Source: a virus. Taken from it: a stretch of 26,764 nucleotides of DNA. The stretch is from the IMG/VR virus record IMGVR_UViG_3300009605_000115, positions 1 to 26,764 of that record. One strand, given 5' to 3'. Within the stretch, counting starts at the first letter, position 1; the number at the start of each line of letters is the position of its first letter. A model generated the notes under the pieces. That model did no database searches. It was not told the DNA's origin and worked only from the letters and a program-made list of their open reading frames with translations. Position numbers and translations under genes: made by a program. Shown here piece after piece: positions 4,477 through 26,764 of the stretch.

Positions 4477-6363
4477 TTAACGACCGTATAAGCCACTGTC
4501 TTTGCCCTTGTCACCCAACGGGTCAGATGCCGATTCTTTGGCAGATTGAATGGAATCCAGCGCCTGTTCGATGGGTGATTTGTCATGTCCGCGCTGGTGT
4601 GTGGTCCCCTTTGGTGACCCGGTGTTGGTGCGCTTGTCCTTTACACCAGACACACGATTGGAACGAGAAGCATCGGTCTTGTCGGAGTCACTACCGCCTC
4701 CACCGATGTCAGGTTCGCCACGCAACAATGGCATTCCGCCCTGCTGTTGCATCATGGCCGGGTTCGCCATAGCCATTCCGGGTTGCATTCCGGGCATCAT
4801 TCCGGGCATCATTCCGGGCATCATTCCGGGTTGCATCGGTGGCTTTGCCATTCCGCCTCCCATCGGAGGTGCGCCACCCGGAGGAGGTGGCATCGGAGGT
4901 GCGCCGCCACCACCCGGAGGTGGTTGTTGCTGCGGTGGTGGTGTTGGTGGTGGATTGCGATATGTGAATCGGATGTCCCGTTCTCCCTCCTCGACCAACT
5001 CGGGTTTGAATCCTAGTTGCATCATTCGTTGTGCGATGTTGACCTCCATCTCGTCACGACGCAGACGGGTCACCTCATCCTCCTCCTCGTTCGGATACAG
5101 GGTCAACTTCCAATCATGAACACCCATCAACTCAAGTAGTCGTGGGAATATGTCGCTTGAGTACATCTTTTGCCCTCGTTCAACGGCACGATTGGTGACG
5201 AGAATCTGCATTCCCTCATTGGTTAGTCCACCACCTTTGCCGGTGTCCATCATGAACACATTGGAGACACCATAGAACGCTGATATGCGTTGACGCAGTT
5301 CCTCACGCACAGCGATGTACTGCATCTCATCCATGCTGTCCATGAACTTGACCCACTCGACACGCCCCCGCCCCGTTTGGCTCTCCACTCCGATTTTCGG
5401 GATGTAGTGCGGGTCGCGCTCCATCTTCTCTTCAACGCCCTTCCAAAAGGAGGCAGTGGACTGGATGTTGTCGGTGGTGATTGCGAGGATGCCTCGTGGA
5501 ACACGGCGCTTGGAATACATGAGGTACATGTAGTTGTCCATAGCCGTCAGCGTCATCGCCTGTCGCCACATGGTAGCAACCGGGCTGCGCCCATACAGTT
5601 TGGATGGGCTGAACTTCATGGCGTGTAGCACCTCACCATCGAGGTAGTATTGCGTCTTGCCAGAACCCGCTGTGTTCACATAGTGGACATCCTGCAACGG
5701 AAGGCTGCATGTCTCGCACTCGTTGTTCTCATCCGTGTATGAGTATGTGCGATGACGATGCACCGGGCAAATCTTCCAACGCCCGCCACGAATGCCGCGC
5801 TTGTCTGCCACGATACGCACGAATGTCGGGTCACCACGGCTAACCTGCTTGACACGAGTGAACTCGATGTCGCCGGTCTCCTTGTCGAGGTAATACTCCT
5901 TGTGGATGATGAGGAATGCGTCATCCACGATGTTCAGGTCAAACTCAACTTCACGCAAAATGTCCATAAATGATTGGTCTTGTTCGGTGCGTTGGTCAAA
6001 CAACCACTTCGGATATATGTTCTCGTCAGCATCCGGCTCACGAGTCTCACCACCACATGTTGGGCATGGCCCATCAATCTTGTACTGGAACTCGGTGGCA
6101 CAGTCAACGCACTTGTGCTGAAACTTCTTTTCCCAATACAAACCACGACGAAATATCTCCTGAACTAGCGTATTGATAGATGTTCGGAGAATTACCGATT
6201 CCTGCATCGTTGCATACAACGCAGGAATAGTAATACCCTGAACAAGAACGGGTTCCTGAATACCACTTTTCCAAAGCGGCATTGTTGGTGCTGGCGTCTC
6301 TCGTCGTTTGAATGGTTTGGTTAGCGTGTCGAGGAAACGCTTGATTCGCCCCTCTTCAGCCAC
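4477..6363 (-). CDS. Portal protein with two zinc-ribbon insertions and Pro/Gly/Met-rich tail
   Basis: This encodes 628 residues from a GTG at 6363 preceded by GGTGGTG; it overlaps the previous gene by 8 bases. The core (about residues 30-470) has the layout of HK97/phi29-type portal proteins: an N-terminal SFxxW-like leader, a helical stem region and a long conserved middle (VLHAMKFSPSKLYGRSPVAT, then RRVPRGILAI). Unusually, two zinc-ribbon-like insertions are visible: C85-x2-C88 with C100-x2-C103, and C199PVH202 with C216-x2-C219. From about 470 the tail is low complexity: polyproline, then PGMM repeats, then a Ser/Lys-rich segment. It ends in SPIEQALDSIQSAKES (596-611), a degenerate copy of the motif shared by many genes here. 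It would form the dodecameric vertex channel through which the terminase pumps DNA. The TerL gene lies two genes upstream, as expected. Confidence 0.85.
   Translation of the reverse strand: MAEEGRIKRFLDTLTKPFKRRETPAPTMPLWKSGIQEPVLVQGITIPALYATMQESVILRTSINTLVQEIFRRGLYWEKKFQHKCVDCATEFQYKIDGPCPTCGGETREPDADENIYPKWLFDQRTEQDQSFMDILREVEFDLNIVDDAFLIIHKEYYLDKETGDIEFTRVKQVSRGDPTFVRIVADKRGIRGGRWKICPVHRHRTYSYTDENNECETCSLPLQDVHYVNTAGSGKTQYYLDGEVLHAMKFSPSKLYGRSPVATMWRQAMTLTAMDNYMYLMYSKRRVPRGILAITTDNIQSTASFWKGVEEKMERDPHYIPKIGVESQTGRGRVEWVKFMDSMDEMQYIAVREELRQRISAFYGVSNVFMMDTGKGGGLTNEGMQILVTNRAVERGQKMYSSDIFPRLLELMGVHDWKLTLYPNEEEDEVTRLRRDEMEVNIAQRMMQLGFKPELVEEGERDIRFTYRNPPPTPPPQQQPPPGGGGAPPMPPPPGGAPPMGGGMAKPPMQPGMMPGMMPGMMPGMQPGMAMANPAMMQQQGGMPLLRGEPDIGGGGSDSDKTDASRSNRVSGVKDKRTNTGSPKGTTHQRGHDKSPIEQALDSIQSAKESASDPLGDKGKDSGLYGR
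4774..4833. repeat. 12-bp tandem repeat, five copies
   Basis: Five back-to-back copies of cattccgggcat or its variant cattccgggttg. On the minus strand they encode PGMM/PGMQ tetrapeptides in the tail of the portal gene. The three central copies are identical, which suggests recent slippage and likely length variation between strains. Just right of it, catcggaggtgcgcc occurs twice (4861-4875 and 4891-4905) in the polyproline part. Confidence 0.95.
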
Positions 6364-6718
6364 CTACACCACCGCCAACACCCGGTTCCTCTGGTTCATC
6401 TTGTTCCTCTGGTTTGTTGCCGCTCATCGCCCGTTCCAACAGGTCTTGGATTCGTTTTGCATCATGCATAATGCCAGCCCAATGAGGGGAATCATCAGCC
6501 ACTTGTTGGAGGCGTTGGAGTAAGTCGTTGGCCAAGTTGTGTGCTATCGCCATCAACTGGTCCGGCTTGTATGCGTGTGGTTGGGTAGATGCCTCGATTC
6601 CGGGCTGCACCTGACCCAGACCTTGCGCCTGTGGCCCTCCTTGTGGTAGCATGTTGTGGGGCATTACTGGGCCGCCCCCCTGCTTGAGCATAACCCACGC
6701 GTAGTTCATTGGATTCAT
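6356..6718 (-). CDS. Small helical protein with N-terminal AW-LK tag
   Basis: The frame is open back to 6778, but I place the start at ATG 6718. This ATG overlaps the stop of the preceding gene as ATGA (6715-6718), the pattern seen throughout the operon. The 120-residue product begins MNPMNYAWVMLKQ, a clear N-terminal copy of the motif shared with at least nine other proteins in the window. A Gly/Pro/Gln linker follows, then a helical domain (QLMAIAHNLANDLLQRLQQV to SGNKPEEQ) and an acidic, Gly-rich end. The next gene is the portal, with an 8-base overlap, so it is probably made together with it. The family is not recognised. A portal- or head-associated small protein is an inference. Confidence 0.8.
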   Translation of the reverse strand: MNPMNYAWVMLKQGGGPVMPHNMLPQGGPQAQGLGQVQPGIEASTQPHAYKPDQLMAIAHNLANDLLQRLQQVADDSPHWAGIMHDAKRIQDLLERAMSGNKPEEQDEPEEPGVGGGVGG

Positions 6719-8165: not shown

Positions 8166-9587
8166 CTAATCCAATATAGTAGTAGGGAACAATTCATCCA
8201 AGTCAATAATCCTCTCCCTGAACTCAGTGGTCGCCCAGTGTCCGAGGGCAAGCGCAATCACCATATCATCATGTCGCCCGATACTCTCCAACTTTCCATG
8301 CTTGCTCATACCGAACAACAACAGTTCGGTCTTGAGTTCATTCATCATAGTTCTTGAGTAGTCATCCCCGATAGGCATACGGATGTGTTCTCGCTCAAAC
8401 TTCAACACCAGACCCATGAGCAGTGACTCTCGCTTGGTCTTGGATGAGATGAATGTCTTGATTGGCAGGTCGGTGTTGGCGCGCAGTTCGGTGGCGAACA
8501 CGCGTTGGAAGTGGTTGGCCTCCAATTCGATGACATCTGGTCTGAACCTTGCGTTCAGGCGTTGAATCTCCATTATTTGGGTTCGGAAGTCCATTGCCTT
8601 CCGACGAATTATGTGGACTATCTCAAGGATGTCAGGCTCCTCGGCTGGTCGTCGCAGCACCATCATCACCGTGTAGTCGGCTGAACGGTCCGATGATATG
8701 GCAGGGTCCCAGCCGATGAAGTACTGGTCGTCATCGGAGCCACCCTCCTTTGGTGCCAACTTCCGACCGAGCAGAACATGATTACGGGATTCACATGGGG
8801 TAATGATGGTCGATGGGAACAGGCTGGATGAGTCATCAATCGGTTCGCATAGATACTCACGAGTGAATGCAACGGCTGGCATATCCTTTCGTCGTATATC
8901 CAACGCATCCAAGTCCCACCGCTCCGGCCACAGCGCTTCTCCACGCTCGTTGATGGCTGGGTATGTTTCGACCAGATACCCATTTTTGCTCTCAAGTTCC
9001 GTGTACAGGTCAGTGGGTGTGAACGGCGTTCCGACAATCATCAGTTGTCCAGTATGGTGAACACAAGGCACGAGGACCTCATAGAACCATGATGCTACAC
9101 GCTTCAGTTCCGTGTCCGTTGTTCCCCACAGGATGTCGTCACACAGGATTATGTGGGGGTGAGCACCACGAACACCACCCCCAACTGACTTGGCGGTGAT
9201 GTTGCTGCCATTCGTGAACCCGAAGAAGGTCTTCGCCCAAGCATCCTTCTTCTTCATCTTGGAGAGGAACGGCACCCCATCTATCCACTCGTTGAGGTTC
9301 CTCATGTGACGAATGGACTGGTCGAGGCTGTGGCTGAACACCATTGCCTCCGTCTTTGGATGGAAGATTACTTTCCACAGCAGGTATGACATGAACAACA
9401 CGGACTTGCCGTGGTCACGAGACGCCTTCACGCAATATCGGTTGTGGGCATCTAGATTAGTGACCCACTTCGCATGGTGAGTAGACAGTTGCCAACCGAG
9501 GATGTCCTCAAAGAAGAATCGGAAGTCACGCTTCGACATCTCAAAGTCGATTTCATCAATAACATCTTTGAGTTGGTCTTCCTGCAA
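8166..9587 (-). CDS. terL: Terminase large subunit (TerL), packaging ATPase-nuclease
   Basis: This encodes 473 residues. The best start is a TTG at 9587, preceded by GTGGTGA; the first in-frame ATG is 16 codons later. The ATPase half has a degenerate Walker A, ASRDHGKS (55-62), as is usual in TerL, a Walker B segment IILCDD (146-151) and the coupling-like motif VGTPF. The nuclease half has the RNase H-fold acidic residues in GWDPA (D294), VIELEAN (about 352-358) and RHDDMVIALALG (about 437-448). The length is normal for the family. TerL binds the portal and pumps DNA into the prohead using ATP, then cuts the concatemer. The gene is preceded by a Gly/Ala/Gln-rich protein gene and followed eight bases later by the LAGLIDADG protein. 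It appears intact. Confidence 0.95.
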   Translation of the reverse strand: MQEDQLKDVIDEIDFEMSKRDFRFFFEDILGWQLSTHHAKWVTNLDAHNRYCVKASRDHGKSVLFMSYLLWKVIFHPKTEAMVFSHSLDQSIRHMRNLNEWIDGVPFLSKMKKKDAWAKTFFGFTNGSNITAKSVGGGVRGAHPHIILCDDILWGTTDTELKRVASWFYEVLVPCVHHTGQLMIVGTPFTPTDLYTELESKNGYLVETYPAINERGEALWPERWDLDALDIRRKDMPAVAFTREYLCEPIDDSSSLFPSTIITPCESRNHVLLGRKLAPKEGGSDDDQYFIGWDPAISSDRSADYTVMMVLRRPAEEPDILEIVHIIRRKAMDFRTQIMEIQRLNARFRPDVIELEANHFQRVFATELRANTDLPIKTFISSKTKRESLLMGLVLKFEREHIRMPIGDDYSRTMMNELKTELLLFGMSKHGKLESIGRHDDMVIALALGHWATTEFRERIIDLDELFPTTILD

Positions 9588-12797: not shown

Positions 12798-14218
12798 GCA
12801 TGGCCCCTCCGAGGGACCCCGCTGCCACTCATCAGCCCAGCAGGGTCAGCGCCCCAGTATCGTGGGTCGTCCTCAGGGTCGGTTTCAGTCGCACCCTCGT
12901 TGCGTGAGGTCTTCTGTGGACCATTGGCAGGAGCCGACACCAGACCATCGCTTCGGCTGCCGCCGCCGGGAATCCCCATGAGGCTCTTGCGGGACAGTTG
13001 GCTCATCAGATGCTTGAGTTCTTGAAGCAGACCACGCATCTCGCTCATGTCGATGTGGCCCAGTCCCGGCCCGAGTCGGCGCACATACGCCTTGACCAGC
13101 ATCAGGTCGCCCACATCCATCAGGTCCTCAATGTCGCCCTTCCCCAATGGTGTCATTGCTAATGGTGACGCCATCGTAGGTGGGGCTAATGGTGATGTTG
13201 AGGCTCTACCCATCCCCTTTGGTCTTGGAGGGCCACGCGTTGCTCGTTGCGCACCCTCTCTAGCCAGTTGAGACTGACCGGGGGATAGACGCAGACGACC
13301 GGAACCTTGAGAGCCGGGGTATCCAATCTGCCCCAACTGCTCACGAGGGGCGTGGGGAGTGTATGGAACGAGGACACCTGCTCCACCCGCAGAACGGTAA
13401 GCAGACTGTCGGCCCAACCATGACAAGTACTTGCCGGGGTTTTCCAATCGGGCTGGTCGTGGTTTGCCATATAGTGAGCCAACACCCATGTGGTGGGGGC
13501 TGAGGGAGTATGGTTGTCGCATCATGCCGGTCTTGGACTTGGAGCGGATGCTACGACCGCCACGGCCCTTGATATTGCCGAACAGTCGTTGGTGGACTGC
13601 AGCGCGTCGTTTGGTAGATGCCCAAGGTGAACGACCACCGATAGGTCGTGGGAATGGTTTAGTTCGATGTCTCTTTCGTGCCTTTGCACCACCAAGTGAA
13701 CGACCACCACGAGTTGCCCGGTCGATGGATTCCAGTGTTGTGGTGCCAACGGGGTCTCCCAGAACCTTGCGAATGTTGGTCCATGCCATCTCCATTGGCT
13801 CACTACGAGTCAGACCGAATGCGCCAGTGGCAGGGAACTGTGGTGGTATCTCACCCAATGCGGAGCCTGTGCCTGTTCGTGCGCCGGTAGCCAAGTCCAA
13901 TGGTTCACCGGCACTACCAGACGGCCCTGTGAGGTCAGACAGTTCTGCCTGATGCTCCTGTGGTGTGGATTCAGCGAATGGTTCGGCATCTTGTTCTGGT
14001 TTGATGGTCTTGACCTTCAGGTGCTGCAGACCTGCCCATCGCTGCTCACGGTCCTCGCGGTCATTCTTCTTGGACTCCTTGTCCTTCTCATCATGGGATG
14101 GGTCATTGGGACCATACTTCTCTTCATCCCTGTCTGCCTCCATGAACTCATCAGACAATGAGCGAGGGTTGTATAGTCGGGTATCACTGCCAGTCGTCTG
14201 CAACTTCTTGATGGTCAT
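12794..14218 (-). CDS. Arg/Lys-rich, largely disordered protein with internal AW motif
   Basis: This encodes 474 residues from ATG 14218, 13 bases after the previous gene. The first 90 residues are highly acidic and basic by turns (DHEKDKESKK type). At about 141-152 is EPMEMAWTNIRKV, a copy of the shared AW motif, here internal. Residues about 170-240 are strongly basic (ARKRHRTKPFPRP; KRRAAVHQR; GRGGRSIRSKSKTG), followed by a Gly/Pro/Ser-rich stretch. A helical C-terminal part (LMDVGDLMLVKAYVRRLG; RGLLQELKHLMSQLSRK) comes before a disordered end. The basic block would suit binding of packaged DNA. Slightly imperfect repeats of ctaatggtga at 13154-13196 encode PLA-type repeats. Function is unknown; a DNA-binding internal virion protein is my inference. 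Confidence 0.75.
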   Translation of the reverse strand: MTIKKLQTTGSDTRLYNPRSLSDEFMEADRDEEKYGPNDPSHDEKDKESKKNDREDREQRWAGLQHLKVKTIKPEQDAEPFAESTPQEHQAELSDLTGPSGSAGEPLDLATGARTGTGSALGEIPPQFPATGAFGLTRSEPMEMAWTNIRKVLGDPVGTTTLESIDRATRGGRSLGGAKARKRHRTKPFPRPIGGRSPWASTKRRAAVHQRLFGNIKGRGGRSIRSKSKTGMMRQPYSLSPHHMGVGSLYGKPRPARLENPGKYLSWLGRQSAYRSAGGAGVLVPYTPHAPREQLGQIGYPGSQGSGRLRLSPGQSQLAREGAQRATRGPPRPKGMGRASTSPLAPPTMASPLAMTPLGKGDIEDLMDVGDLMLVKAYVRRLGPGLGHIDMSEMRGLLQELKHLMSQLSRKSLMGIPGGGSRSDGLVSAPANGPQKTSRNEGATETDPEDDPRYWGADPAGLMSGSGVPRRGHA

Positions 14219-14231
14219 ACATCTGTCCGCC

Positions 14232-14609
14232 TCAAAAGTCTTGGCCTAGATGACCGGATTGCTTCAGTCTTGAGACGACATCATCAGGCGCAGGTAGCCC
14301 CATAGTTTGTCCGGGTCGTGAGATATTAGGAGTGTCAGGTGATGGCCCACCGGGGCTGCCTCCTTTCGCAGCACGACGGTCCAGTTCTGCTAGGATTGCC
14401 TCAACCATCTGCTTCAGTTCTGGTCCGGTGAATCGGAAGAAGTCCTGACTACCCATTGGTTCTGGTCCCACTCTTCCCCTTGGTATTGGAATCTCTGGCT
14501 TATCCTCGTCATATCCCTGCCCAGTACTGCTATATTCTGACGGTGGTGGCATATCTGGGTCATAGTCCTTTAACACAACCCAAGCCGTTTCAAATGCATT
14601 CATAGTCAT
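14232..14609 (-). CDS. Small protein with N-terminal AW-LK tag
   Basis: The open frame reaches 14627, but only the ATG at 14609 has a ribosome binding site (GGGAGGG, nine bases upstream). That start gives 125 residues beginning MTMNAFETAWVVLKD, a strong N-terminal copy of the shared motif. A Pro/Gly/Ser-rich linker and a predicted helix (GPELKQMVEAILAELDRRAA) follow, then a disordered Gly/Pro tail. The design (tag, linker, one helical domain) matches the small proteins at 6356, 21944 and 24408. It overlaps no neighbour with this start. Family not recognised. Confidence 0.75.
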   Translation of the reverse strand: MTMNAFETAWVVLKDYDPDMPPPSEYSSTGQGYDEDKPEIPIPRGRVGPEPMGSQDFFRFTGPELKQMVEAILAELDRRAAKGGSPGGPSPDTPNISRPGQTMGLPAPDDVVSRLKQSGHLGQDF

Positions 14610-14613
14610 CCGC

Positions 14614-15042
14614 TCAGTCCCTCCCATGCAGCACTAGTTCAAAAGTGGCTCGGACACGACTACCTAGATTGTGATAGAAGTTTCTGACCGAATCAGGGCC
14701 GGTGAATGGTCGTGCCATCTCATCAACCATTGAGTCAAATTGGTCTATCATCAATGCTAGTTGCTGTCTCCTTGGCCATGCTGTTATCGGGTCGTCATCC
14801 TCATAGACATCCAATAAGGCGTCGGCAATCATGTTGACGAACTCCTGTCGAGGTGCGGCCCATCCATCAGAACATTTTGTTATTCGCCCAAGGAAGTCGG
14901 CCCAAACCGATATTGCTGCTTGAACAGCATTGAAGAACTCCGGTATGTCTTCCATCTCCAATGCTCCATCATCCTGCAATAGATGTGCAGTCGGCATGTC
15001 GAGGCACATCAAATCTGCCACTGGTATCCCCACAAAGTTCAT
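14614..15042 (-). CDS. Small helical protein downstream of the small-terminase candidate
   Basis: This encodes 142 residues. ATG 15042 shares a base with the preceding TAA (TAATG), and a strong GAGGTGGAGG site lies inside the end of the upstream gene, so translation is probably coupled. The protein is mostly helical and acidic (DIPEFFNAVQAAISVWADFL; VNMIADALLDVYEDDDP; QQLALMIDQFDSMVDEMARP). There are two cysteines but no metal motif, and no membrane segment. I recognise no family. Immediate coupling to the TerS-like gene suggests a packaging- or head-related helper. Confidence 0.75.
   Translation of the reverse strand: MNFVGIPVADLMCLDMPTAHLLQDDGALEMEDIPEFFNAVQAAISVWADFLGRITKCSDGWAAPRQEFVNMIADALLDVYEDDDPITAWPRRQQLALMIDQFDSMVDEMARPFTGPDSVRNFYHNLGSRVRATFELVLHGRD
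14619..14625 (-). promoter_or_regulatory. Ribosome binding site deciding the 14609 start
   Basis: The minus strand reads GGGAGGG nine bases before the ATG at 14609. The upstream ATG at 14627 has no such site. This choice puts the AW motif within the first ten residues of the protein. Confidence 0.6.
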
Positions 15043-15788: not shown

Positions 15789-16046
15789 ATGGGACGATTA
15801 CCTCGCGCACCGCGGCGCATCGCTGGGGTGCCAATCACCAAGGAGACCGGCAAGAACTTGGCCGGCGCTGCAATCGACATCGTTCTGGGTCGAAGCGTGG
15901 ATGACAAGATTGCCAAGGAAAGATTGGAAAAATGTATGAAATGTGAGGTTTTTGATGGGAGTAGATGTGGTGCATGTGGTTGCTTCATGCGAAGTAAGGT
16001 CGGTTTGCCAACTGCATACTGCCCGTTGGGAAAATGGAATCGCTAG
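15789..16046 (+). CDS. Small six-cysteine zinc-binding phage protein
   Basis: This is one of only two plus-strand genes I accept; it encodes 85 residues. Cysteines sit at C49-x2-C52, C60-x2-C63, C65 and C78, and the end reads CGCFMRSKVGLP then CPLGKW. This CxxC...CxxCGCF...K...CPxxKW pattern is one I know from small proteins in marine tailed phages, whose function is not established. The first 40 residues are basic (MGRLPRAPRRIAG). It is divergent from the TerS candidate with only 27 bases between starts. It is convergent with the next minus gene, sharing a CTAG in which both stops lie (16043-16046). Confidence 0.85.
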   Translation: MGRLPRAPRRIAGVPITKETGKNLAGAAIDIVLGRSVDDKIAKERLEKCMKCEVFDGSRCGACGCFMRSKVGLPTAYCPLGKWNR

Positions 16047-16990: not shown

Positions 16991-17971
16991 TCACACTTGC
17001 GAAGGCACTTCAGGTGCCGTAAATGCCTGTTCCCGTTCAATTGAATCGTCCAACAAGCCTTGTAATCCGATTCCCACCGTGGCTTGGGTGGCTGGAGATA
17101 TTGTGGTATTGGATGTAGCATGGAGAATCGGACTGTTGTGACCCAACTGTTGGAACTGCCTCATGTCAAACACCATTATCGTCAGGTCGTTCATACCAGT
17201 CTCCTTGTTTTTGAAGTGTGTGATTGGCACACCATCCTTGCGAGCCATGCGGAAGAACTCCTCGTACTTCACCAACTTGTCCGGCGTGTTGTCCGGTTTC
17301 CTGACTACGCTAATTGGAATGGATACCGTGGACACGCCACGCTTCAACTTGTCCTTCAATGTCGACTTGCCACCCTCGCTCTCCTGTTCCTCCTCGGCCT
17401 CCCACTTGCAGAGCAGGTGATACAGATGCAGGTGCTCAGGACAATATGTCCCATTGAGGGTGTTGCCACTGGTCACACCCTCACGAGCGAGGAATGCGCG
17501 TGGCTGTTCGGTCACCGGGTCCATGAAGTACAGGTCCCAAAGGGACTTTCCGGTATCCTCATCACGAATCTCGTCATAGATGTTCCCGACGGTTCGCAAC
17601 AGGTTCTCGACATTGCATCCATCCACTACGCACTGTGCTGTGTTCTTGGAGTATCGGTACTTGCCTCCGAACCACCACCTGCGAGGCGACATGGCATGGC
17701 GCTTCATCGGCTTCAACAGACGGTATGCCTGTTTGATGTCCTGCCGTCGCCGCTTGTGTGGCTTCGCATGGCGTGACGGGTAGAAGTTGACCTTCGGAAC
17801 CTCGATGTGTGGTGTCTCCTCCGCAGCAGCATACATGGCACCTTGCGCCTGTGCCGCGCTTTGTAGTTGCTGAACAGACATATTTGTCTGTGCCGACAAC
17901 CTCATCAGTTCTGCCTCACTGCTCATTGCAAGCGGCGCATTGTATCTCTGTTGCCCGAACATGTCAATCAC
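16991..17971 (-). CDS. Unknown protein with a Cys/His metal-site candidate
   Basis: This encodes 326 residues from a GTG at 17971 that overlaps the GTPase stop as GTGA. An ATG three codons in is the alternative. The N-terminus to about 55 is Ala/Gln/Met-rich (ELMRLSAQTNMSVQQLQSAA). A very basic patch follows (HAKPHKRRRQDIKQAYRLLK, then MKRHAMSPRRWWFGGKYR). Cysteines in CVVDGC (about 114-119) and the C/H cluster YCPEHLHLYHLLCKW (about 177-191) could form a zinc site. The C-terminal third looks like a compact beta-rich domain (VSTVSIPISVVRK; DLTIMVFDMRQ). No family recognised. Stop/start coupling to the GTPase makes a functional link with it likely. Confidence 0.75.
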   Translation of the reverse strand: MIDMFGQQRYNAPLAMSSEAELMRLSAQTNMSVQQLQSAAQAQGAMYAAAEETPHIEVPKVNFYPSRHAKPHKRRRQDIKQAYRLLKPMKRHAMSPRRWWFGGKYRYSKNTAQCVVDGCNVENLLRTVGNIYDEIRDEDTGKSLWDLYFMDPVTEQPRAFLAREGVTSGNTLNGTYCPEHLHLYHLLCKWEAEEEQESEGGKSTLKDKLKRGVSTVSIPISVVRKPDNTPDKLVKYEEFFRMARKDGVPITHFKNKETGMNDLTIMVFDMRQFQQLGHNSPILHATSNTTISPATQATVGIGLQGLLDDSIEREQAFTAPEVPSQV

Positions 17972-18687
17972 TCATTCAACATCAGGAACATCGTGCGTTC
18001 CACATTCCAACCGATTCGAGTTGACATCATCGATACCCTGCATATAATCCCTGCCTTCTGTAGCCTTATCATTCCTGCCCTGAATGGGTCGAATATCTTG
18101 TGTTCCCGCAGCCGTTGCTGCTGCCATAGAACATCGGCCTCGGGGTCCCACCATCGGTCTGCCTTGTTCGCCACCAACCAAATAAACTTCGGAGCATACC
18201 TCTTTCCCTTGAATCTGGTGCGCAGTCGACGGTATCGGTACTGGCGGTTGATGATTGTGTCCACCAGATACTCAAAACCGGCCACCGCCTCCAACGCAGC
18301 GACCCCCCCGTTCTTGGAGCGGTCATCGTACATGTAGACGATTCCCTCGACCTGCCTATCCACCATGTCATCAATCCACAGCGACCAGAAGTCCCGTTCA
18401 CCACCGATGTCCGATGAATGCACGACACGCTTCTCACCTTCGTACCTAACGCGCTTTCGTGTTGCGTTTGGAAGAACATGACCATCACCTATCAACCTCT
18501 TCAGATGCCGTGTGCGTTCATCCTCCGGTATCTCCTCCATCTCACCCGGCGTCGTCATGTATCGGTCGAGCGTGGTTTTGCCCACCTGTGTAGCACCATA
18601 GATTCCGATTCGGCGCGGCTTCCAATAGTTCCATATCTGCTGCCCGAAAAGAACAGCACCCAATAGAACTGAACCTTCCATTGCCAC
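17968..18687 (-). CDS. Ras/Arf-like small GTPase with hydrophobic N-terminus
   Basis: This encodes 239 residues from a GTG at 18687, with GGGGGAG upstream. Residues 6-22 are hydrophobic (SVLLGAVLFGQQIWNYW) and could anchor or peripherally attach the protein to a membrane. Then come the G motifs: G1 GATQVGKTT (31-39), G3 DIGGE (93-97), G4 NKAD (174-177, after FIWLVA). The GG after D in G3 resembles Arf, SR-beta and Rag-type GTPases more than Ras. I cannot place G5 with certainty. Length is slightly above the usual 170-200 because of the N-terminal segment and an insertion near 145-165 rich in Arg/Tyr. It is expected to bind and hydrolyse GTP at a membrane. It sits between membrane-protein genes and a basic Cys/His protein, all coupled by overlaps. 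Such a GTPase is unusual in a virion gene cluster. Confidence 0.85.
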   Translation of the reverse strand: MAMEGSVLLGAVLFGQQIWNYWKPRRIGIYGATQVGKTTLDRYMTTPGEMEEIPEDERTRHLKRLIGDGHVLPNATRKRVRYEGEKRVVHSSDIGGERDFWSLWIDDMVDRQVEGIVYMYDDRSKNGGVAALEAVAGFEYLVDTIINRQYRYRRLRTRFKGKRYAPKFIWLVANKADRWWDPEADVLWQQQRLREHKIFDPFRAGMIRLQKAGIICRVSMMSTRIGWNVERTMFLMLNE

Positions 18688-18702
18688 ACTTTGTCTCCCC
18701 CT

Positions 18703-18936
18703 TCAGAACAAACTTATGATGTAGTCGAGGGCGTATAGCAGCGTGTTTTCCCACAGACTCTCATGAATGTAGTACTCCGCACCAGATGTGATGAGGATTG
18801 CTGTGCATGAAAAGAACACCACCTTTACCCAACCCCATGTCCTTTCATACACACGGTCCACTTGATTCGCCATATGCAGTTGGCGTAGGGTGCCTTCGAC
18901 TGCATCATCGCTCGGCGTCTTGAAAATCAGCCCCAC
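18703..18936 (-). CDS. Small membrane protein upstream of the GTPase
   Basis: This encodes 77 residues from a GTG at 18936, one base overlapping the preceding TAG. GGAGG stands seven bases before the start, which strongly supports it. Residues about 1-35 are soluble and charged. A hydrophobic helix follows (about 36-55, GWVKVVFFSCTAILITSGAE) and a second weaker one closes the protein (about 62-77, NTLLYALDYIISLF). No family recognised. Its stop is 16 bases from the GTPase start, so the two are probably translated together; it may be a membrane receptor or partner for it. Confidence 0.75.
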   Translation of the reverse strand: MGLIFKTPSDDAVEGTLRQLHMANQVDRVYERTWGWVKVVFFSCTAILITSGAEYYIHESLWENTLLYALDYIISLF

Positions 18937-19511
18937 TATTGTGCCTCCTTCTTCTTCTTCTGCTTTGAGCCATCTTCCTTCTCTTCATTCTGCGTCAGGT
19001 CTGTACCCAATGAGATAGGCTTGTCGCTATTCGACTTGTGTTGTGGTGGGGGGTTGAAGTCCTCCACAGGTTCTTGGAACGGCATAGCCGCCAACGCTTG
19101 GTTTTGAAGGCCACCCACCATCTGCATGTATGCCTCCGGGTTCTCGTCCAACAGACGGATTTGCCTGTCCAACGCTATCTGCCTCGCCCGCAACTCCTGT
19201 TGCAACTGCGCATCTTGGAACTGAGTGTTCATGCTTTGAATCTGACGGTCACGGATACGCTGTGACTTTGTCCATTGTGCCTTCGTGTCCATCCCTTCCT
19301 GCAACAGCAACTTGTAGAAGAAGAACGACATCCCCTGTAATGTGAATGCCCCCATCGCATATGTCATCGCATTCGTGTAGGTGTTGCCATCCACCCGCAG
19401 CCATAGGCGCGCGTCGAAGACAGCGATGGAGCATCCCACCAGAATCGACACGAATCCGATGAACCCCATGATTCTCAAAACATCTTCATTGACCCTGTGT
19501 TCACTCCCCAT
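18936..19511 (-). CDS. Two-helix membrane protein with coiled coil and poly-Lys end
   Basis: The open frame runs to a TTG at 19541. The ATG at 19511 has GGAGAGGCGAGG upstream and is preferred, giving 191 residues. Two transmembrane helices lie at about 14-32 (IMGFIGFVSILVGCSIAVF) and 45-66 (AMTYAMGAFTLQGMSFFFYK). A long polar helix with coiled-coil character follows (about 75-125; SQRIRDRQIQSMNTQFQDAQ), then a Pro/Asn/Glu-rich tail ending in KQKKKKEAQ. It is likely a membrane-anchored protein with a long soluble arm. It is the first gene of the coupled membrane/GTPase run, downstream of a 222-base intergenic region. No family recognised. Confidence 0.75.
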   Translation of the reverse strand: MGSEHRVNEDVLRIMGFIGFVSILVGCSIAVFDARLWLRVDGNTYTNAMTYAMGAFTLQGMSFFFYKLLLQEGMDTKAQWTKSQRIRDRQIQSMNTQFQDAQLQQELRARQIALDRQIRLLDENPEAYMQMVGGLQNQALAAMPFQEPVEDFNPPPQHKSNSDKPISLGTDLTQNEEKEDGSKQKKKKEAQ

Positions 19512-19569
19512 AACCTCGCCTCTCCAATGGGTCGGTGACAAAGGAACCCAATAAACTGTTCCCCGGAGG

Positions 19570-20693: not shown

Positions 20694-21035
20694 ATGACCC
20701 AACTAGTCGGTGTTGTGCTCAAGAGAGCAACGAGTCCGCTGGCGTTGGAGCACAAACACAGATACGATACGAAGTACGAGCAAACCCCCCGCCGTGTCAA
20801 GTATCGAGAAGAACTCAACAGGGAGAGGAGAAGGAGAGGCATTTACAGTCATGGTGGCCCTGACATCTCACACACTAGTCAACACACACTAGTATTGGAG
20901 AATCCCCATGCGAATCGCGCTCGACACTTTGCCGGTCATACATTGAAGCCGATTGAGAAGGCGTGGAATCTCCTTGCCAACTCTGCATCATCTGACAACC
21001 CACGGCTATGCCGAGAACCAGTTCCATCCACATGA
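20694..21035 (+). CDS. Small basic phage protein with AW motif near its C-terminus
   Basis: This is the second accepted plus-strand gene, 113 residues, with AGGTG six bases before the ATG. The centre is basic: TPRRVKYREELNRERRRRG, then GGPDISHT and VLENPHANRARHF. This order (Arg-rich helix, G-x-D-x-SH, then N-R-x-R) recalls small structural proteins of marine tailed phages with a GDGKDVDHK-type motif, a distant resemblance only. The C-terminal PIEKAWNLLANS (positions 20949-20984) is a clear copy of the shared AW motif. This rules in this frame over the overlapping minus-strand frame at 20609-20842. It is divergent from the Pro-rich gene (88 bases between starts) and convergent with the HMG-CoA lyase gene (3 bases between stops). 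Confidence 0.75.
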   Translation: MTQLVGVVLKRATSPLALEHKHRYDTKYEQTPRRVKYREELNRERRRRGIYSHGGPDISHTSQHTLVLENPHANRARHFAGHTLKPIEKAWNLLANSASSDNPRLCREPVPST

Positions 21036-21038
21036 CAA

Positions 21039-21896
21039 TCATGAGTAGACCTCCATAGGCTCCAACCTTTTAATGAAACTGAGTACAGACTTCAAGTTGT
21101 CAGTACTCACCCCACAGTCGATGCCCTCATCCTCGCACCATGCCACCAAGTCCTCCGTCGCTAGGTTGTGACCGGAGCCGAGAGTCAACGGACAACCACC
21201 TAGACCCCCGATGCTGGAGTCGAACTGCCGGACACCGTAGTCCCATGCCGTCTCGATGTTCCTCAACATCTGGTGTCTGTCACCATCTCCATAGTGGAGG
21301 TGTAGTGCGATATTCGCATTCATCGACTCGGTCAGCATGAGAGCGCTCTCAACCAGTTCTGGAGTGGCCTTTCCCACAGTATCACACAACACGATTGTGC
21401 CTCCCAAGAGGTCTGCCTGTTGCAATGAGTATGAGAGGTCATTGTCTGATATAGACCCCATAAACGGACAACCGAATGCACAGGAGATGTAGACTCGTAC
21501 ATTCTCACGCGGTACTCCCTTCAACATGTCCCAGTAGTGGTCAATCACCTCACTCTGGACTCGACCGAGGTTGCGATGATTGAACTCATCTGATGGAGAG
21601 AAGAATATGTTGAAGTGCGTGACACCAACCTGTTTTGCTCGTATCAACCCATGTTGGTTGGGAATCAACACTCCAAACTGACCATCAATGTGGGAGATGT
21701 TGGCGAACACGAGGTCTGAATCTGCCATCGTGGGCATGACTCGGGGGTTGACGAATGACCCGACTTCGATATTGGTCAGACCAGCATCATACAGGAGTTG
21801 AATCAACTCAATCTTCTGTGCGGTGGGGATGATGAAATCAAGTCCTTGTAGACCGTCTCTTGGCCCAACCTCATATATCGTGAGCCCATCAACCAC
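21039..21896 (-). CDS. Hydroxymethylglutaryl-CoA lyase (HMG-CoA lyase)
   Basis: This encodes 285 residues from a GTG at 21896; no ATG fits and no ribosome binding site is seen, consistent with a leaderless message. HMG-CoA lyase cleaves HMG-CoA to acetyl-CoA and acetoacetate. The family signatures are present in order: EVGPRDGLQ (9-17; catalytic Arg13 and metal-binding Asp14), the IEVGSFVNP segment with PTMADSD, the FGCPFMG segment, CDTVGKATPE, the metal-binding HLH pair (199, 201), and GGLGGCPL with the catalytic Cys at 235, then HNLATEDL (Asn 244). The GLGGCP signature favours HMG-CoA lyase over isopropylmalate or homocitrate synthases. Length is near the usual 300 and the active site looks intact. 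It lies among virion genes with no metabolic neighbours, so it is probably a virus-carried auxiliary metabolic gene. In archaea HMG-CoA feeds mevalonate and isoprenoid lipid synthesis. Confidence 0.93.
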   Translation of the reverse strand: MVDGLTIYEVGPRDGLQGLDFIIPTAQKIELIQLLYDAGLTNIEVGSFVNPRVMPTMADSDLVFANISHIDGQFGVLIPNQHGLIRAKQVGVTHFNIFFSPSDEFNHRNLGRVQSEVIDHYWDMLKGVPRENVRVYISCAFGCPFMGSISDNDLSYSLQQADLLGGTIVLCDTVGKATPELVESALMLTESMNANIALHLHYGDGDRHQMLRNIETAWDYGVRQFDSSIGGLGGCPLTLGSGHNLATEDLVAWCEDEGIDCGVSTDNLKSVLSFIKRLEPMEVYS

Positions 21897-21918: not shown

Positions 21919-21926
21919 AAATTAAA
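21919..21926 (-). promoter_or_regulatory. Archaeal-type TATA-like box for the HMG-CoA lyase gene
   Basis: The minus strand reads TTTAATTT, ending 22 bases before the GTG at 21896, so its centre is near -26. That is the spacing expected if transcription begins at the start codon, as in leaderless archaeal genes. The gene lacks a ribosome binding site, which agrees. A single AT-rich octamer in a 47-base gap is weak evidence. Confidence 0.35.
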
Positions 21927-21943: not shown

Positions 21944-22372
21944 TTACACTGGATTGCCTTTGTTGTCGACCACTTCGTATCCTTCGGGGAACTTGTCACC
22001 GATTATCCTTCCACTGGGATATGAGAACCACATCCCGCCTCGTTCAAATGCCTGTGTCTCTGCTTCCATAGTCTGTCCTCCTGTCTGCCCAAACAAGTCT
22101 GGTGGACCAGCAGTCACTCCCACGACGCTCGGGCTATGCTGCTGCTCCTGCTGCCGGTTCCAATCACGAATGATGGAAGCAATCTGGTCACTGTTGTTCT
22201 CACGCAACTGTTGGAGTTCTGCCCGCGCAGCATCATCATCCATCTGTGCGGCCTCATACAAATTAATCACACGAAACACAAAGGCGTCCCAATCATTCGG
22301 TGGGCCTTGACTTCCACCAGCCATGAACTTGATGACCGCCCATGCCTCGTCGAACGGTTGTAATATATTCAT
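21944..22372 (-). CDS. Small protein with N-terminal AW-LK tag and GPPxLFG motif
   Basis: This encodes 142 residues from ATG 22372, overlapping the preceding stop as ATGA, with AGGGA ten bases upstream. It begins MNILQPFDEAWAVIKFMAGG, one of the clearest N-terminal tags. A helical domain follows (FRVINLYEAAQMDDDAARAE; LRENNSDQIASIIRDWNRQQ), then a second shared motif, GPPDLFGQ (89-96), and a short C-terminal beta-like part (MWFSYPSGRIIGDKFPEGYE). It carries both shared motifs in one small protein, which links the two as parts of one system. No enzyme motif; family not recognised. Confidence 0.8.
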   Translation of the reverse strand: MNILQPFDEAWAVIKFMAGGSQGPPNDWDAFVFRVINLYEAAQMDDDAARAELQQLRENNSDQIASIIRDWNRQQEQQHSPSVVGVTAGPPDLFGQTGGQTMEAETQAFERGGMWFSYPSGRIIGDKFPEGYEVVDNKGNPV

Positions 22373-24372
22373 GAATACAACTTCCCTTTAAGCATCTGAA
22401 ATGCAATATCCATTGGTTCACCTGTAGTGAATCCCGTTGACTCATTCCAAGGCAGACCTGTGAATGTCCCCTGCGTCCTCAATGAGGGTCGCTCAGATAT
22501 GCCATGCGTCCTCAGTATCCTGTCAAGGGTCTCCGGGTCATCTGCAAACATCGTCTGTAGCCAATTCCACTCCTCGGGCGATATCTGGCCTTGGTAGATG
22601 TCCAACTCGTTGATGTCCGGCACAACATGGGGTGAAGCCTCCTGCTCCCTCTTCCAGTCTTGGTGTTCCTCGCCCCCCGCTCTGATGTGAGTTTGTTGAC
22701 GCAAGTCATCGTCGTCGTCAACCTCAAATCTGTGCTCCACATCGCCAAACTCACCCCTCAGTGCCGCGGCGACATCATCCGGTACCTCAGTCGGTCCACC
22801 TCTGGTCGACCCCGTACCAATGGAGATGTCGCGCTTCCTGTTGGTCAACCAATCCGGTGCCAAGTGTCCGCCAAGAGCGACATCCGGCAACGAAGGCAGA
22901 CCTTGCTCGGCCAAATCGACATCCTCCTGCGTCCTCAATGAGCCGGGATGATGCATCGGCTCCTTCAGACCCATGTGATATGGTGCTTTCGCAGCATCGA
23001 GCCAGTCTTTCAAGTCCTTCTGTCTCTCATTACGCAACCAAGACGACGGACCAGCACCGGGGGAATCTCCGTGGAGTTGGCCTGAATACCACCTTTCCCG
23101 TTCCCAATCTGCCCATCTCTTTTTTGCCGCGCTTTCAGCCTGATTCCTGTATCGATTGATGAATGATGTGTTCTCTCTCATTTTTTCCCGATGCAAGCGC
23201 CGCTGGTCCTCCGCCTCGCGCGCCGCCCTCGCCTTCGCCTCCCTTCGATGTCTACCCTGTAAATCACTCCGGCTTGCCGGCTTGGAATGCCCACTCGGTC
23301 TTGTGATTGGCGGTGTCTCCTGACCCCTGATGCGGCGAATCTGACCGTAGTCCTTGGGTATGGGCTGCTTCTCTCCAGTGCCTATCCTCGCCCGACCGAC
23401 GCCGGACGCACCATATGAGTCATCCCAGTAACTGGTTTCGTGTAGTGGGAGTTTCTCCTTGCCCGTCTTCCCCTTGCGCTTATTGGATGCAATGTCCATC
23501 TGGTCCTCGATGTCCTCGATGTCCTCGTCGGTCACCCGCTTCAGGATGGCCCATGCCGCCTCGATTGGACTGATGGACTTGCCGAACAAGGATGGTGGAC
23601 CGTCATCCTTCCCACCACGACCACCACGAGCCACCTTCGGCCTTTTATCCTCCACCTCAGTCTCGGGCTCATCCTCCGGCTCCTCGGTCGTGTCGATACC
23701 CAATGCCTCCTGCAACTCTTTGTACCTCGCGTCCCATGCCTCCTGTGCCGCAGTCGCCTGTCGCTTCCAGTGCGGTGCCACAAACTCTGCGGGGTCATTC
23801 GGCCTAACACCGAGTTCCTTGTCCACAATCTCCCTAATTCGGGTGTTGACCTGTTGGAGTTCGCTCCGTGGCTCTGGGATGTTCGGAGGGGTCTCGCCGC
23901 TCTCCGTCCTCATCGTCACCCCACCGGCAGTGCTCTTGTTCGCGTTGTACACCTTGAACGGATTGTCAGCCGCTTGGTGGGTATAGTTCATGTGAAGTGG
24001 CTTGCCACTGTCCATAGCGTGTCGTATGTGCTTGTCTATCCCACCAGAGTCATCGGTTGCGTCGTGTGGGTCCGGCAACGCCAAGAAGTGGGTCGCCTCG
24101 TCTGCGAATCCGACGCCCCTTTTCCACTTCGGAACCGAGTGGGGAATGTCGCGCTGACCTGCCCACAACTCCGCGAACAACGGCACACCGGGGCGCTCCA
24201 GACTCATCACATGGCTGGGCATCCCATTCTCATCGACCCACTCATCCATCTTGGAGTCGAATAAATCCCTGTCGCGGAACTTCTCACCGCCAAGGACCGC
24301 GAGAGTTGACCCCTCGTCCTCCTCAATGAGGGGCGGAGGGCCATCTTCCTTCAGGATGTCAAACCAGCGCAT
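22369..24372 (-). CDS. Large two-module protein with motifs at module borders
   Basis: This encodes 667 residues from ATG 24372, with AGGAG seven bases upstream. Layout: N-terminal helix and degenerate motif (MRWFDILKEDGPPPL); module 1 (about 20-210; FAELWAGQRDIPHSVPKWKR, THFLALPDP, GKPLHMNYTHQA); acidic linker; GPPSLFG (258-264) directly followed by SPIEAAWAILKR (268-279); module 2, with a strongly charged helical region (AKARAAREAEDQRRLHREKM; about 375-425) and an Asp/Glu-rich part; and a C-terminal tag EPMDIAFQMLKGKLYS (652-667). Neither module matches a family I can name; the GKPLHMNYTH and HFLALP segments in module 1 look enzyme-like but without a provable active site. The motif placement at the start, border and end is the key feature. 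Confidence 0.8.
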   Translation of the reverse strand: MRWFDILKEDGPPPLIEEDEGSTLAVLGGEKFRDRDLFDSKMDEWVDENGMPSHVMSLERPGVPLFAELWAGQRDIPHSVPKWKRGVGFADEATHFLALPDPHDATDDSGGIDKHIRHAMDSGKPLHMNYTHQAADNPFKVYNANKSTAGGVTMRTESGETPPNIPEPRSELQQVNTRIREIVDKELGVRPNDPAEFVAPHWKRQATAAQEAWDARYKELQEALGIDTTEEPEDEPETEVEDKRPKVARGGRGGKDDGPPSLFGKSISPIEAAWAILKRVTDEDIEDIEDQMDIASNKRKGKTGKEKLPLHETSYWDDSYGASGVGRARIGTGEKQPIPKDYGQIRRIRGQETPPITRPSGHSKPASRSDLQGRHRREAKARAAREAEDQRRLHREKMRENTSFINRYRNQAESAAKKRWADWERERWYSGQLHGDSPGAGPSSWLRNERQKDLKDWLDAAKAPYHMGLKEPMHHPGSLRTQEDVDLAEQGLPSLPDVALGGHLAPDWLTNRKRDISIGTGSTRGGPTEVPDDVAAALRGEFGDVEHRFEVDDDDDLRQQTHIRAGGEEHQDWKREQEASPHVVPDINELDIYQGQISPEEWNWLQTMFADDPETLDRILRTHGISERPSLRTQGTFTGLPWNESTGFTTGEPMDIAFQMLKGKLYS

Positions 24373-24407: not shown

Positions 24408-24902
24408 TCACTGGTATCCGGTTATGAACGAGGGTTGGTATCCACCGCCCTGCTGACCCTCGCACTGCTCCCATTCCTGTAGAATCCGTTGCGCCGTATT
24501 ATTCATATCCATCACTATTTGAGAAACTTCATGACCTGAAAAATCAGGTATCGTTTCAGGATTACTCATGAACTGCAATCGCTCTCTTAATTCTTCACAT
24601 GACGCATGTTGGTATTCTAAAATCGCATTTGTGGCTCTTTCATTATGTTGATTCCACGACCCGGCGTCGAGGGCCGGCCTTGCCATTCTACGAAAACTCG
24701 CTGATAGAGCATCAATTGTTTGTTCTCGTGCAGCCTCACAACAATCATCCCCTTCCCCTTGTGTTTGGTCGGTGTATTGGTCGGTCGAGGGGTCGTACTG
24801 ATAGTCCATCGTGAACTCATCATACTCGGGAATGTGCTCCGGTCGGAACTGCGGCTGTGGCTGCTTGATGACATCCCACGCCTTGTCGAATGGGGAAGAC
24901 AT
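24408..24902 (-). CDS. Small helical protein with N-terminal AW-LK tag
   Basis: The open frame reaches 25088, antisense-free but overlapping the next gene; ATG 24902, five bases after that gene's stop, gives 164 residues beginning MSSPFDKAWDVIKQ, a textbook copy of the shared motif. A Tyr/Asp/Gln-rich linker follows, then a helical domain (EAAREQTIDALSASFRRMAR; HASCEELRERLQFM; VSQIVMDMNNTAQRILQEWE) and a Gly/Gln tail. Four cysteines are scattered and do not form a metal motif. GAGTGA upstream is a weak ribosome binding site. Local base composition is more AT-rich (24480-24640) than its neighbours. Family not recognised. Confidence 0.8.
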   Translation of the reverse strand: MSSPFDKAWDVIKQPQPQFRPEHIPEYDEFTMDYQYDPSTDQYTDQTQGEGDDCCEAAREQTIDALSASFRRMARPALDAGSWNQHNERATNAILEYQHASCEELRERLQFMSNPETIPDFSGHEVSQIVMDMNNTAQRILQEWEQCEGQQGGGYQPSFITGYQ

Positions 24903-24907
24903 AGGAA

Positions 24908-25114
24908 TCACTCGTTCATTACAGAGGCCCCGCCACCATCTGGCTTCCCAGTGGTCGGAGGTGATGCTGGTGCGCCACCCTGTCCCAAGTCGCATCTGGG
25001 GCAGTACAACTGGTCGAGTTCGTCTAGTTTCATCGACCCGCCGCACCTCTCGCAGTGTGGCAGACCATGCTCCTTGAGAACTGCCCACGCACTATCCATC
25101 GGCATATTGCTCAT
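24908..25114 (-). CDS. Tiny zinc-ribbon protein with N-terminal AW-LK tag
   Basis: This encodes 68 residues from ATG 25114, overlapping the previous stop as ATGA. It begins MSNMPMDSAWAVLKEHGLPH, then forms a zinc ribbon with C21-x2-C24 and C38-x2-C41 (HCERCGGSMKL; YCPRCDLG), and ends in a Pro/Gly/Ala tail. It is nearly the minimal construct: tag plus zinc ribbon. Zinc ribbons commonly bind nucleic acids or protein partners; which applies here cannot be told. It is coupled between the GNAT/ART-like gene and a tagged helical protein. Confidence 0.8.
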   Translation of the reverse strand: MSNMPMDSAWAVLKEHGLPHCERCGGSMKLDELDQLYCPRCDLGQGGAPASPPTTGKPDGGGASVMNE

Positions 25115-26764
25115 CCTACCGCACCACTACTTGGCTTATTGATGATTTGGTGTTTGAGGAGTTGGAACGCGATGTCCATTGATTCTCCCATCCTCACTAT
25201 CTGTTCTGGTGAAATATCGTGTGGAATAATGTATGCGGAAGCATGGTCAATACCATCTGGTTCTTCATGCACTCCATAAAAATCATTTCCATAATCATCT
25301 GGGTGAGATAGGTTATGGCGACCTCGTATGCCTACAACTCGTGATGGTGTATCTCGGTTGTGCGTCATCTCATTAGCCCAATCTTCTGCTTGTTCTCGTG
25401 CAAAATCCAGACCTGTAGGTGTATGACCCATCCATGCATAAATCCCTTTTTTTGGCGGGTTATCTCTAATCTGTCCGATGCCTTCTAGATGAGTTTTAAT
25501 CGGAGTACCAGTCAAACCTTCATGGGATATCTTCTTGTGCTGCTCATCGGATAATGCACGATAGCCTGTCACTGGGCCATGTGATGATGGGAAGTCCTCG
25601 TGGTACTCACCGAGTTCCGTCTGGCGACCGGCCTTGAGCAGCCGCATAGCAATGTCCATAGGTTCACCTGTCTCGACTGTCTCGATTGGATGCCGCTGAC
25701 CCGCAAAGGATATTCCACGCGTCGGTCGAGCGGTCTTTCCTCTAGGAACCCCCATTAGGGAGCCTACTGCGGGGGTAGCGTACCCCGGATGCTCATGCCG
25801 CACCCTGCTCCCGGCTGGAACCTCCCCTCCCCACTTCACGCTCTTGTTCTTCCCATACTTTTGCCTTGGAAGTCGGACGCCCGCTTCAAGGTCGCGGAGG
25901 GCTTCATCCCGTTCGCGGAGGACGGAGAGTTCGTGTGCCACCACAGGGTCGTCAACATCAAATGTGTCACTAGCGCCGGGGATGGCGGGACGCCCCGGAA
26001 CGAAAGTCATATTGCGCATAACTTGCTCCGCGCGCCTTTCAATTCTATCTGACTCCTTCTGCCTCCGCTCATCGTATGACTCCTGAGACTCATCTTCAGG
26101 CTCAAGAATCGCCATATCACCTGTGGTCGGGTCGAATTGTCGGGTACTCCTGTGGCTCTGGCCAACATGGGTTTTGCTAGATTGCTGAGGGTCGCGTGGT
26201 GGTGTCCTCACTGGCAACTCACCGCCCATCTGCGGACGGAGGCTGCCCCATTTGTCCGGGGAGTCCCAGTTGTAGTCGAGGCGGTATTGATGGTGTTGGG
26301 CCGTTAGGTCTTCTAAATCAGGTGGATTTATGTCATCATCATCCCACAATATATTTATGTCATCATCATCCCAATCCTCACTAGGGAGGTCATCAGTGCC
26401 TTCATGATGTACTCCGGGGAGTCCCTTCAACCTCTCCTGAAGCATTTCATGGCTCCGTTGTGAATACTTGTTGCGTTGCCCTATGCTCTGCAATTCCCCA
26501 CGATGGCCGAGTATGCTCATGAGGAGGCGCTGGTACAGGCCCTGACCCCGGTAGGGTCTCTCTATACTGGCCTGACCGATGCGAAAAACTGTGTCTTTGG
26601 GGTTATCCGCGTCGTAGTATTCACTTCCAGACCAGTCGCTGACATCACCTATAGCCTTGTCGCCATGCATCAGGGTGTACTCACCATACGGACTACCCCC
26701 ACCCGGCGCTTGCACCCACAAGTCTGCGGGGTTGGGGGATTCGACAGGCGACTCGGGGCGGGGT
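25111..26764 (-). CDS. Modular protein: GNAT-like, linker, ADP-ribosyltransferase-like; 5'-truncated
   Basis: The frame is open to the right edge without an ATG, so the true start lies outside; numbering here begins at a TTG at 26721. Near the N-terminus, IERPYRGQGLYQRLLMSILG (residues 53-72) is the acetyl-CoA-binding motif A of GNAT acetyltransferases. An Asp-rich repeat and a charged disordered linker follow, then the shared motif GEPMDIAMRLLK (352-363). The C-terminal module (about 370-510) has the order VTGYRALSDEQHKKISHEGL, GIYAWMG, DFAREQAEDWANE, VVGIRG and IPHDISPEQIVRMG. That order resembles ADP-ribosyltransferase-fold domains (including KptA-like and phage versions), but I cannot fix the catalytic residues. 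It ends in ESMDIAFQLLKHQI, another tag. Both modules being protein-modifying types, each closed by a tag, suggests a packaged effector. Confidence 0.75.
   Translation of the reverse strand, partial: PRPESPVESPNPADLWVQAPGGGSPYGEYTLMHGDKAIGDVSDWSGSEYYDADNPKDTVFRIGQASIERPYRGQGLYQRLLMSILGHRGELQSIGQRNKYSQRSHEMLQERLKGLPGVHHEGTDDLPSEDWDDDDINILWDDDDINPPDLEDLTAQHHQYRLDYNWDSPDKWGSLRPQMGGELPVRTPPRDPQQSSKTHVGQSHRSTRQFDPTTGDMAILEPEDESQESYDERRQKESDRIERRAEQVMRNMTFVPGRPAIPGASDTFDVDDPVVAHELSVLRERDEALRDLEAGVRLPRQKYGKNKSVKWGGEVPAGSRVRHEHPGYATPAVGSLMGVPRGKTARPTRGISFAGQRHPIETVETGEPMDIAMRLLKAGRQTELGEYHEDFPSSHGPVTGYRALSDEQHKKISHEGLTGTPIKTHLEGIGQIRDNPPKKGIYAWMGHTPTGLDFAREQAEDWANEMTHNRDTPSRVVGIRGRHNLSHPDDYGNDFYGVHEEPDGIDHASAYIIPHDISPEQIVRMGESMDIAFQLLKHQIINKPSSGAVG
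26326..26373. repeat. 21-bp direct repeat encoding WDDDDIN
   Basis: atttatgtcatcatcatccc plus a terminal a occurs at 26326-26346 and again, identical, at 26353-26373 (period 27 bases, nine codons). On the minus strand it encodes two WDDDDIN units in the linker of the GNAT/ART-like protein. Perfect identity implies a recent duplication. Confidence 0.9.

Follow-up and report, generated by a model that had tools for sequence, protein, structure and literature searches.

An HMG-CoA-lyase-type gene in the virion module of an archaeal tailed virus placed in or close to the Magrovirales

What does a gene of the HMG-CoA lyase type do among the virion genes of an archaeal tailed virus? We asked this of a 26,764-base IMG/VR record, analyzed in full and called the window here, in which such a gene (HMGL) shares a strand with the terminase and portal genes inside the virion module. 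On balance, we lean toward a magrovirus lyase of the HMGCL family that acts within the infected cell and splits a 3-hydroxy-3-methylacyl-CoA, most likely HMG-CoA, with effects on acetyl-CoA and lipids.

The gene, its family, and its virus

The sequence-only reading had described an intact HMGL with PRDGLQ, HLH, GGLGGCP, and HNLATED motifs, and both the frame and the motifs were confirmed (Table 1). Its family assignment was borne out as well. The product matches the Pfam HMGL-like family PF00682 (4e-23) and, over nearly its full length, the NCBIfam HMG-CoA lyase model PRK05692 (1.3e-66, at 224.7 bits, below the curated cutoff of 246), and solved HMG-CoA lyases match it by sequence, down to 9e-44. 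An AlphaFold2 model built from 28 sequences (pLDDT 93.8) had HMG-CoA lyases as all eight of its best structural matches (Z 36.5 to 37.9), with human HMGCL (2cw6) the best PDB match at Z 37.9 and the next subfamily at 27.8. Human HMGCL (2cw6 and 3mp3) and bacterial 1ydn and 6nds share this fold at an rmsd of ~2 Å and 32 to 36% identity in structural alignment. Isopropylmalate, homocitrate, and citramalate synthases and 4-hydroxy-2-oxovalerate aldolase have the TIM barrel and HxH metal site in common with the viral protein, but these other DRE-TIM enzymes match its fold clearly less well (Z ≤ 28, 12 to 22% identity). Among viral proteins, an HMGL-like protein of the giant virus Klosneuvirus KNV1 (BFVD A0A1V0SKU2) has the same fold (TM-score 0.89) at 28% identity. 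Judged by sequence and predicted fold, we regard membership in the HMG-CoA lyase family as secure and HMG-CoA as a plausible substrate. PADLOC made no call for HMGL. The 47-nt gap upstream of its GTG contains a TTTAAT stretch consistent with a TATA element of archaea, and we read nothing beyond that into it.

Table 1. Features of the window, with coordinates and strand
Feature	Position	Strand	Remarks
Portal protein	4477..6363	minus	Druskaviridae-like
AWxxLK-bearing ORF	6356-6778	minus	Motif scan
Gene with HNH endonuclease domain	6715-8157	minus	phrog_5046, 3.5e-9; between portal and terminase
Terminase large subunit	8166..9587	minus	Virus-lineage marker
AWxxLK-bearing ORF	12794-14218	minus	Motif scan
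AWxxLK-bearing ORF	14232-14627	minus	Motif scan
Small cysteine-rich protein	15789-16046	plus	DUF6171 (9.4e-7); conserved in G001 and G003
Three conserved virion-module genes	17968..19541	minus	239, 77, and 201 aa; far side of HMGL; order kept in G001, G002, and G003
Convergent small gene	20694..21035	plus	113 aa; ends 3 nt from HMGL stop
HMG-CoA-lyase-type gene (HMGL; HMGCL family, DRE-TIM)	21039..21896	minus	285 aa; GTG start; no internal stop
TTTAAT stretch, possible archaeal TATA element	21921..21926	minus	~25 to 30 nt before HMGL GTG; by eye
Upstream neighbor of HMGL, AWxxLK-bearing	21944..22372	minus	142 aa; N-terminal QPFDEAWAVIK motif; motif scan
Large neighbor, no assigned function, AWxxLK-bearing	22369..24372	minus	Two AWxxLK motifs; motif scan
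AWxxLK-bearing ORF	24408-25088	minus	Motif scan
AWxxLK-bearing ORF	25111-26763	minus	Motif scan

That HMGL lies among virion genes of an archaeal tailed virus, as the first reading had proposed, agrees with the position of terminase and portal genes on its strand and with the portal itself, for which all 11 matches in a phage collection were archaeal viruses, the best being HCTV-5/HVTV-1 (Druskaviridae) at 29%. The 26.8-kb window fragment has no PolB or chaperonin gene; its syntenic relatives, G002 and G003, have both. Among the matches listed, the PolB of G002 scored highest against haloarchaeal HVTV-1. The ICTV profile describes the Magrovirales as related to Druskaviridae and as encoding PolB and chaperonins (PMC10768690), and Nishimura et al. 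(2017) reported that 38 of 58 viral genomes attributed to marine group II encode chaperonins (PMC5332604). Together, the portal, PolB, and chaperonin evidence and these two sources suggest that the window belongs in or close to the Magrovirales. The presumed host of magroviruses, according to this literature, is the archaeal order Poseidoniales (PMC10768690, PMC5332604). As a separate observation, the HNH-domain gene of the window has a relative in L014 that is split into two ORFs.

Occurrence among related viruses

In three other records (G001, G002, and G003), an HMGL 45 to 46% identical to that of the window occupies the same position, flanked by the convergent small gene (57 to 58% identical) and by the three virion-module genes, and weak relatives (28 to 29%) of the large neighbor lie upstream. 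Since G001 and G002 appear to represent a single virus, this syntenic placement amounts to two independent cases. The sequence-only reading had called for a check against an assembly chimera; the recurrence of HMGL among the same neighbors in other records rules out a misassembly. Elsewhere, HMGL lies near the terminase on the opposite strand (L014) or, in a further group of relatives, between terminase and portal; its position within the virion module thus varies. The convergent small gene itself is a plus-strand gene in a mostly minus-strand module; its window copy had no Pfam match, and L229:9210-9620, a relative from the same cluster, has a DUF6321 match (4.8e-15).

A single-sequence scan of IMG/VR for HMGL returned no match, its patterns being too specific, and relatives were instead defined by an IMG/VR search with a profile built from both viral and bacterial proteins. 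This search of other viral genomes, which the first reading had also called for, found at least 136 contigs encoding HMGL relatives, the best 80 of which are 40 to 54% identical to the window protein. Thirty-one HMGL-bearing records are at least 80 kb long, and 30 of these carry a chaperonin and 24 a recognizable PolB. Among eight PolB-bearing records of at least 70 kb, sampled mostly by PolB rather than by HMGL, four encode HMGL, a rough share given that records may be incomplete; records that lack HMGL also carry chaperonins. This share and the number of contigs indicate that HMGL is widespread yet optional in these viruses. PolB is broken up into separate frames in G078 (73771-74918) and G079 (54381-55819), and the PolB match in G080:93433-93999 passes through two stop codons. 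PCNA_N was not found in the 31 large HMGL-bearing records. A sliding clamp is listed for magroviruses in the ICTV profile (PMC10768690), and a divergent clamp sequence is the likely cause of this miss.

Some candidates were set aside. Two "Acinetobacter phage" records with HMGL have neighbors of bacterial type (catalase, HTH-type regulator, CoA-transferase) and were rejected as viral evidence. Records under the name "Acinetobacter phage MD-2021a" (L083, CAKLQH020000001.1) hold, amid bacterial-type metabolic genes, an HMG-CoA lyase annotated as 2-isopropylmalate synthase, and they are probably bacterial DNA. An UNVERIFIED fecal contig in the phage collection, which carries no annotation, was likewise rejected as evidence of a viral HMGL.

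The sequence-only reading was not aware of this enzyme as an established viral gene, a point that does not hold. The ICTV profile of 2023 reports HMG-CoA lyase in magroviruses (Aoguangviridae, Aobingvirus yangshanense YSH_150918; PMC10768690), and Xu et al. (2023) count HMGCL among magrovirus AMGs (PMC10160649). The Aoguangviridae enzyme bears the same annotation as that of the window, and the evidence from portal, PolB, and chaperonin points to one and the same order of viruses; the likeness to the reference genomes ON649702 and OR863078 is drawn from annotation. The consulted parts of these two sources do not describe a virus-specific clade with a fixed motif loss, which may be known elsewhere.

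Residues, selection, and substrate

Viral HMGLs form a lineage of their own. In a quick tree of 87 rows, a single branch with support 100 divides them from all other sequences, and their stem measures 0.64 changes per site; in a more careful tree of 59 rows they form one clade supported at 100/100. This phylogeny, too, had been proposed in the first reading. A genome scan for cellular HMGLs gave no archaeal match among the 80 listed, and two haloarchaeal plasmid proteins were added to the cellular set for the careful tree. Neither tree places a cellular sequence inside the viral clade, among a cellular sample in which archaea are scarcely represented. Identity averages 46% among viral sequences and 45% among cellular ones, against 33% across the two sets. 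For the 16 close pairs of viral HMGLs that were informative, dN/dS was 0.03 to 0.19, indicating purifying selection that keeps the gene for its function.

The catalytic core is retained throughout this clade. In human HMGCL numbering, R41 and D42 are kept in all 81 viral rows that cover them; E72, N138, D204, H233, H235, C266, and N275 in 82 of 82; and Q45, Y167, and S169 in every viral HMGL covering them. In the human enzyme, D42, H233, H235, and N275 are the metal ligands, and R41 and C266 are catalytic; all six are present in the window protein, as in 2cw6, 3mp3, 1ydn, and 6nds, and do not vary across the viral clade. By contrast, only 23 of 82 viral HMGLs retain Cys174.

The claim that all recognizable active-site elements are present stands for the four motifs and is too strong for the residues right after the metal-binding HxH. 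Asp/Asn-Thr occupies this place in each of the 80 cellular relatives compared, a set that favors typical members because it was picked by similarity to the viral profile with patterns from conserved motifs of six sequences, and in none of the 82 viral HMGLs; the window has Tyr-Gly there. Unlike the cellular HMGCLs of solved structure, the window protein also has Val for Ser201, a change found in 82 of 82 viral HMGLs and in 9 cellular ones, and a shorter C-terminal tail (beyond human residue 306, the median is 14 residues in viral and 22 in cellular sequences). To our knowledge, Asp/Asn-Thr after HxH is not a published defining feature of the HMGCL family. As it is a regularity found here, its loss weakens the claim about substrate and not that about family. 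The changed loop and tail across the clade mean that homology alone does not give specificity, and these changes may alter substrate binding.

These differences open an alternative that we rate as less likely, though credible, namely, that the viral lyase performs the same metal-dependent C-C cleavage on a different acyl-CoA or on a non-CoA substrate, its specificity having changed at the base of the clade. Such a change would fit the clade-wide fixation of the lost Asp/Asn-Thr, Ser201Val, altered post-HxH loop, and shorter tail, as well as the single clade and its long stem, and even the two distant haloarchaeal HMGL-like proteins retain HDT. However, every metal-binding or catalytic position examined, the cysteine of the HMGCL-type GxGGCP among them, is unchanged in 82 of 82 viral HMGLs, and HMGCL is the closest fold by a wide margin. 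It is conceivable, if not what we expect, that an ancestral HMG-CoA lyase gave rise in magroviruses to a lyase of their own, whose metal-site loop was rebuilt and whose substrate changed, and that the published label is wrong for the whole clade.

Probable site of action and proposed role in infection

Many proteins around HMGL share a short motif, roughly [PAGS][MFIL][DENQ]x[AT][WFM]xx[LIVM][KR] and here called AWxxLK (QPFDEAWAVIK is an example). It occurs 9 times in ORFs of the window, where shuffles predict 0.05 occurrences. Around viral HMGLs (loci L177 to L255), 257 of 1,259 proteins contain 298 copies in total, against an expectation of ~1, and most copies lie no more than 40 aa from the N terminus. 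It was found in 0 of 82 viral HMGLs. The motif may mark virion proteins for loading or for assembly; that it directs proteins into the particle is our guess, and, if it does, its absence from HMGL fits action in the cell. One motif-bearing protein (25111-26763) had no Pfam match; by eye, and unsupported, it shows GNAT-like and ADP-ribosyltransferase-like stretches with AWxxLK-type motifs between them.

A structural or moonlighting role in the particle or its assembly might explain why HMGL sits within or next to the virion module and usually shares the strand of its neighbors. We consider this very improbable, given that the catalytic residues are invariant, that HMGL lacks the motif of many neighbors, and that half of the large PolB-bearing records do without it, so that it would be dispensable for assembly. 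A degraded copy on its way to loss, or a misassembly that brought in a gene from bacteria or the host, would suit the patchy distribution but can practically be dismissed in view of the low dN/dS, the intact frames, the syntenic copies in other records, and a viral clade free of cellular members among those sampled.

The in-cell HMGCL-family lyase that we favor would be produced inside the infected marine archaeon and left out of the particle. It would hold a divalent metal through Asp14, His199, His201, and Asn244 (window numbering), with Arg13 and Cys235 taking part, and would cleave a 3-hydroxy-3-methylacyl-CoA, most likely HMG-CoA, to acetyl-CoA and a keto acid. With HMG-CoA as substrate, the products would be acetyl-CoA and acetoacetate, and the reaction would compete with mevalonate synthesis. 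Acetyl-CoA could thereby be set free for energy and carbon, and the synthesis of mevalonate and archaeal lipids deprived of HMG-CoA in the course of lytic infection. Xu et al. (2023) place magrovirus HMGCL in leucine degradation instead (PMC10160649); between this and competition with mevalonate synthesis, sequence would favor neither. No thiolase or HMG-CoA reductase gene was found in the 31 large HMGL-bearing records, on which ground we rejected a metabolic operon; this pattern suggests that the virus supplies a single enzymatic step and draws its substrate from the host. The lack of such partner genes also counts against HMG-CoA as the substrate, as do the lost Asp/Asn-Thr, the other clade-wide changes, and the model score below the curated cutoff.

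Magroviruses are reported to be abundant in the surface ocean, and an enzyme kept by selection at the branch point between energy and archaeal lipids in many of them could alter the carbon use of infected cells. The AWxxLK motif that adjoins HMGL, common to hundreds of virion-module proteins, is the strangest feature we saw. Were the substrate indeed changed, "HMG-CoA lyase, leucine degradation" would mislabel a whole viral clade, and the enzyme would serve an unrecognized step of infection.
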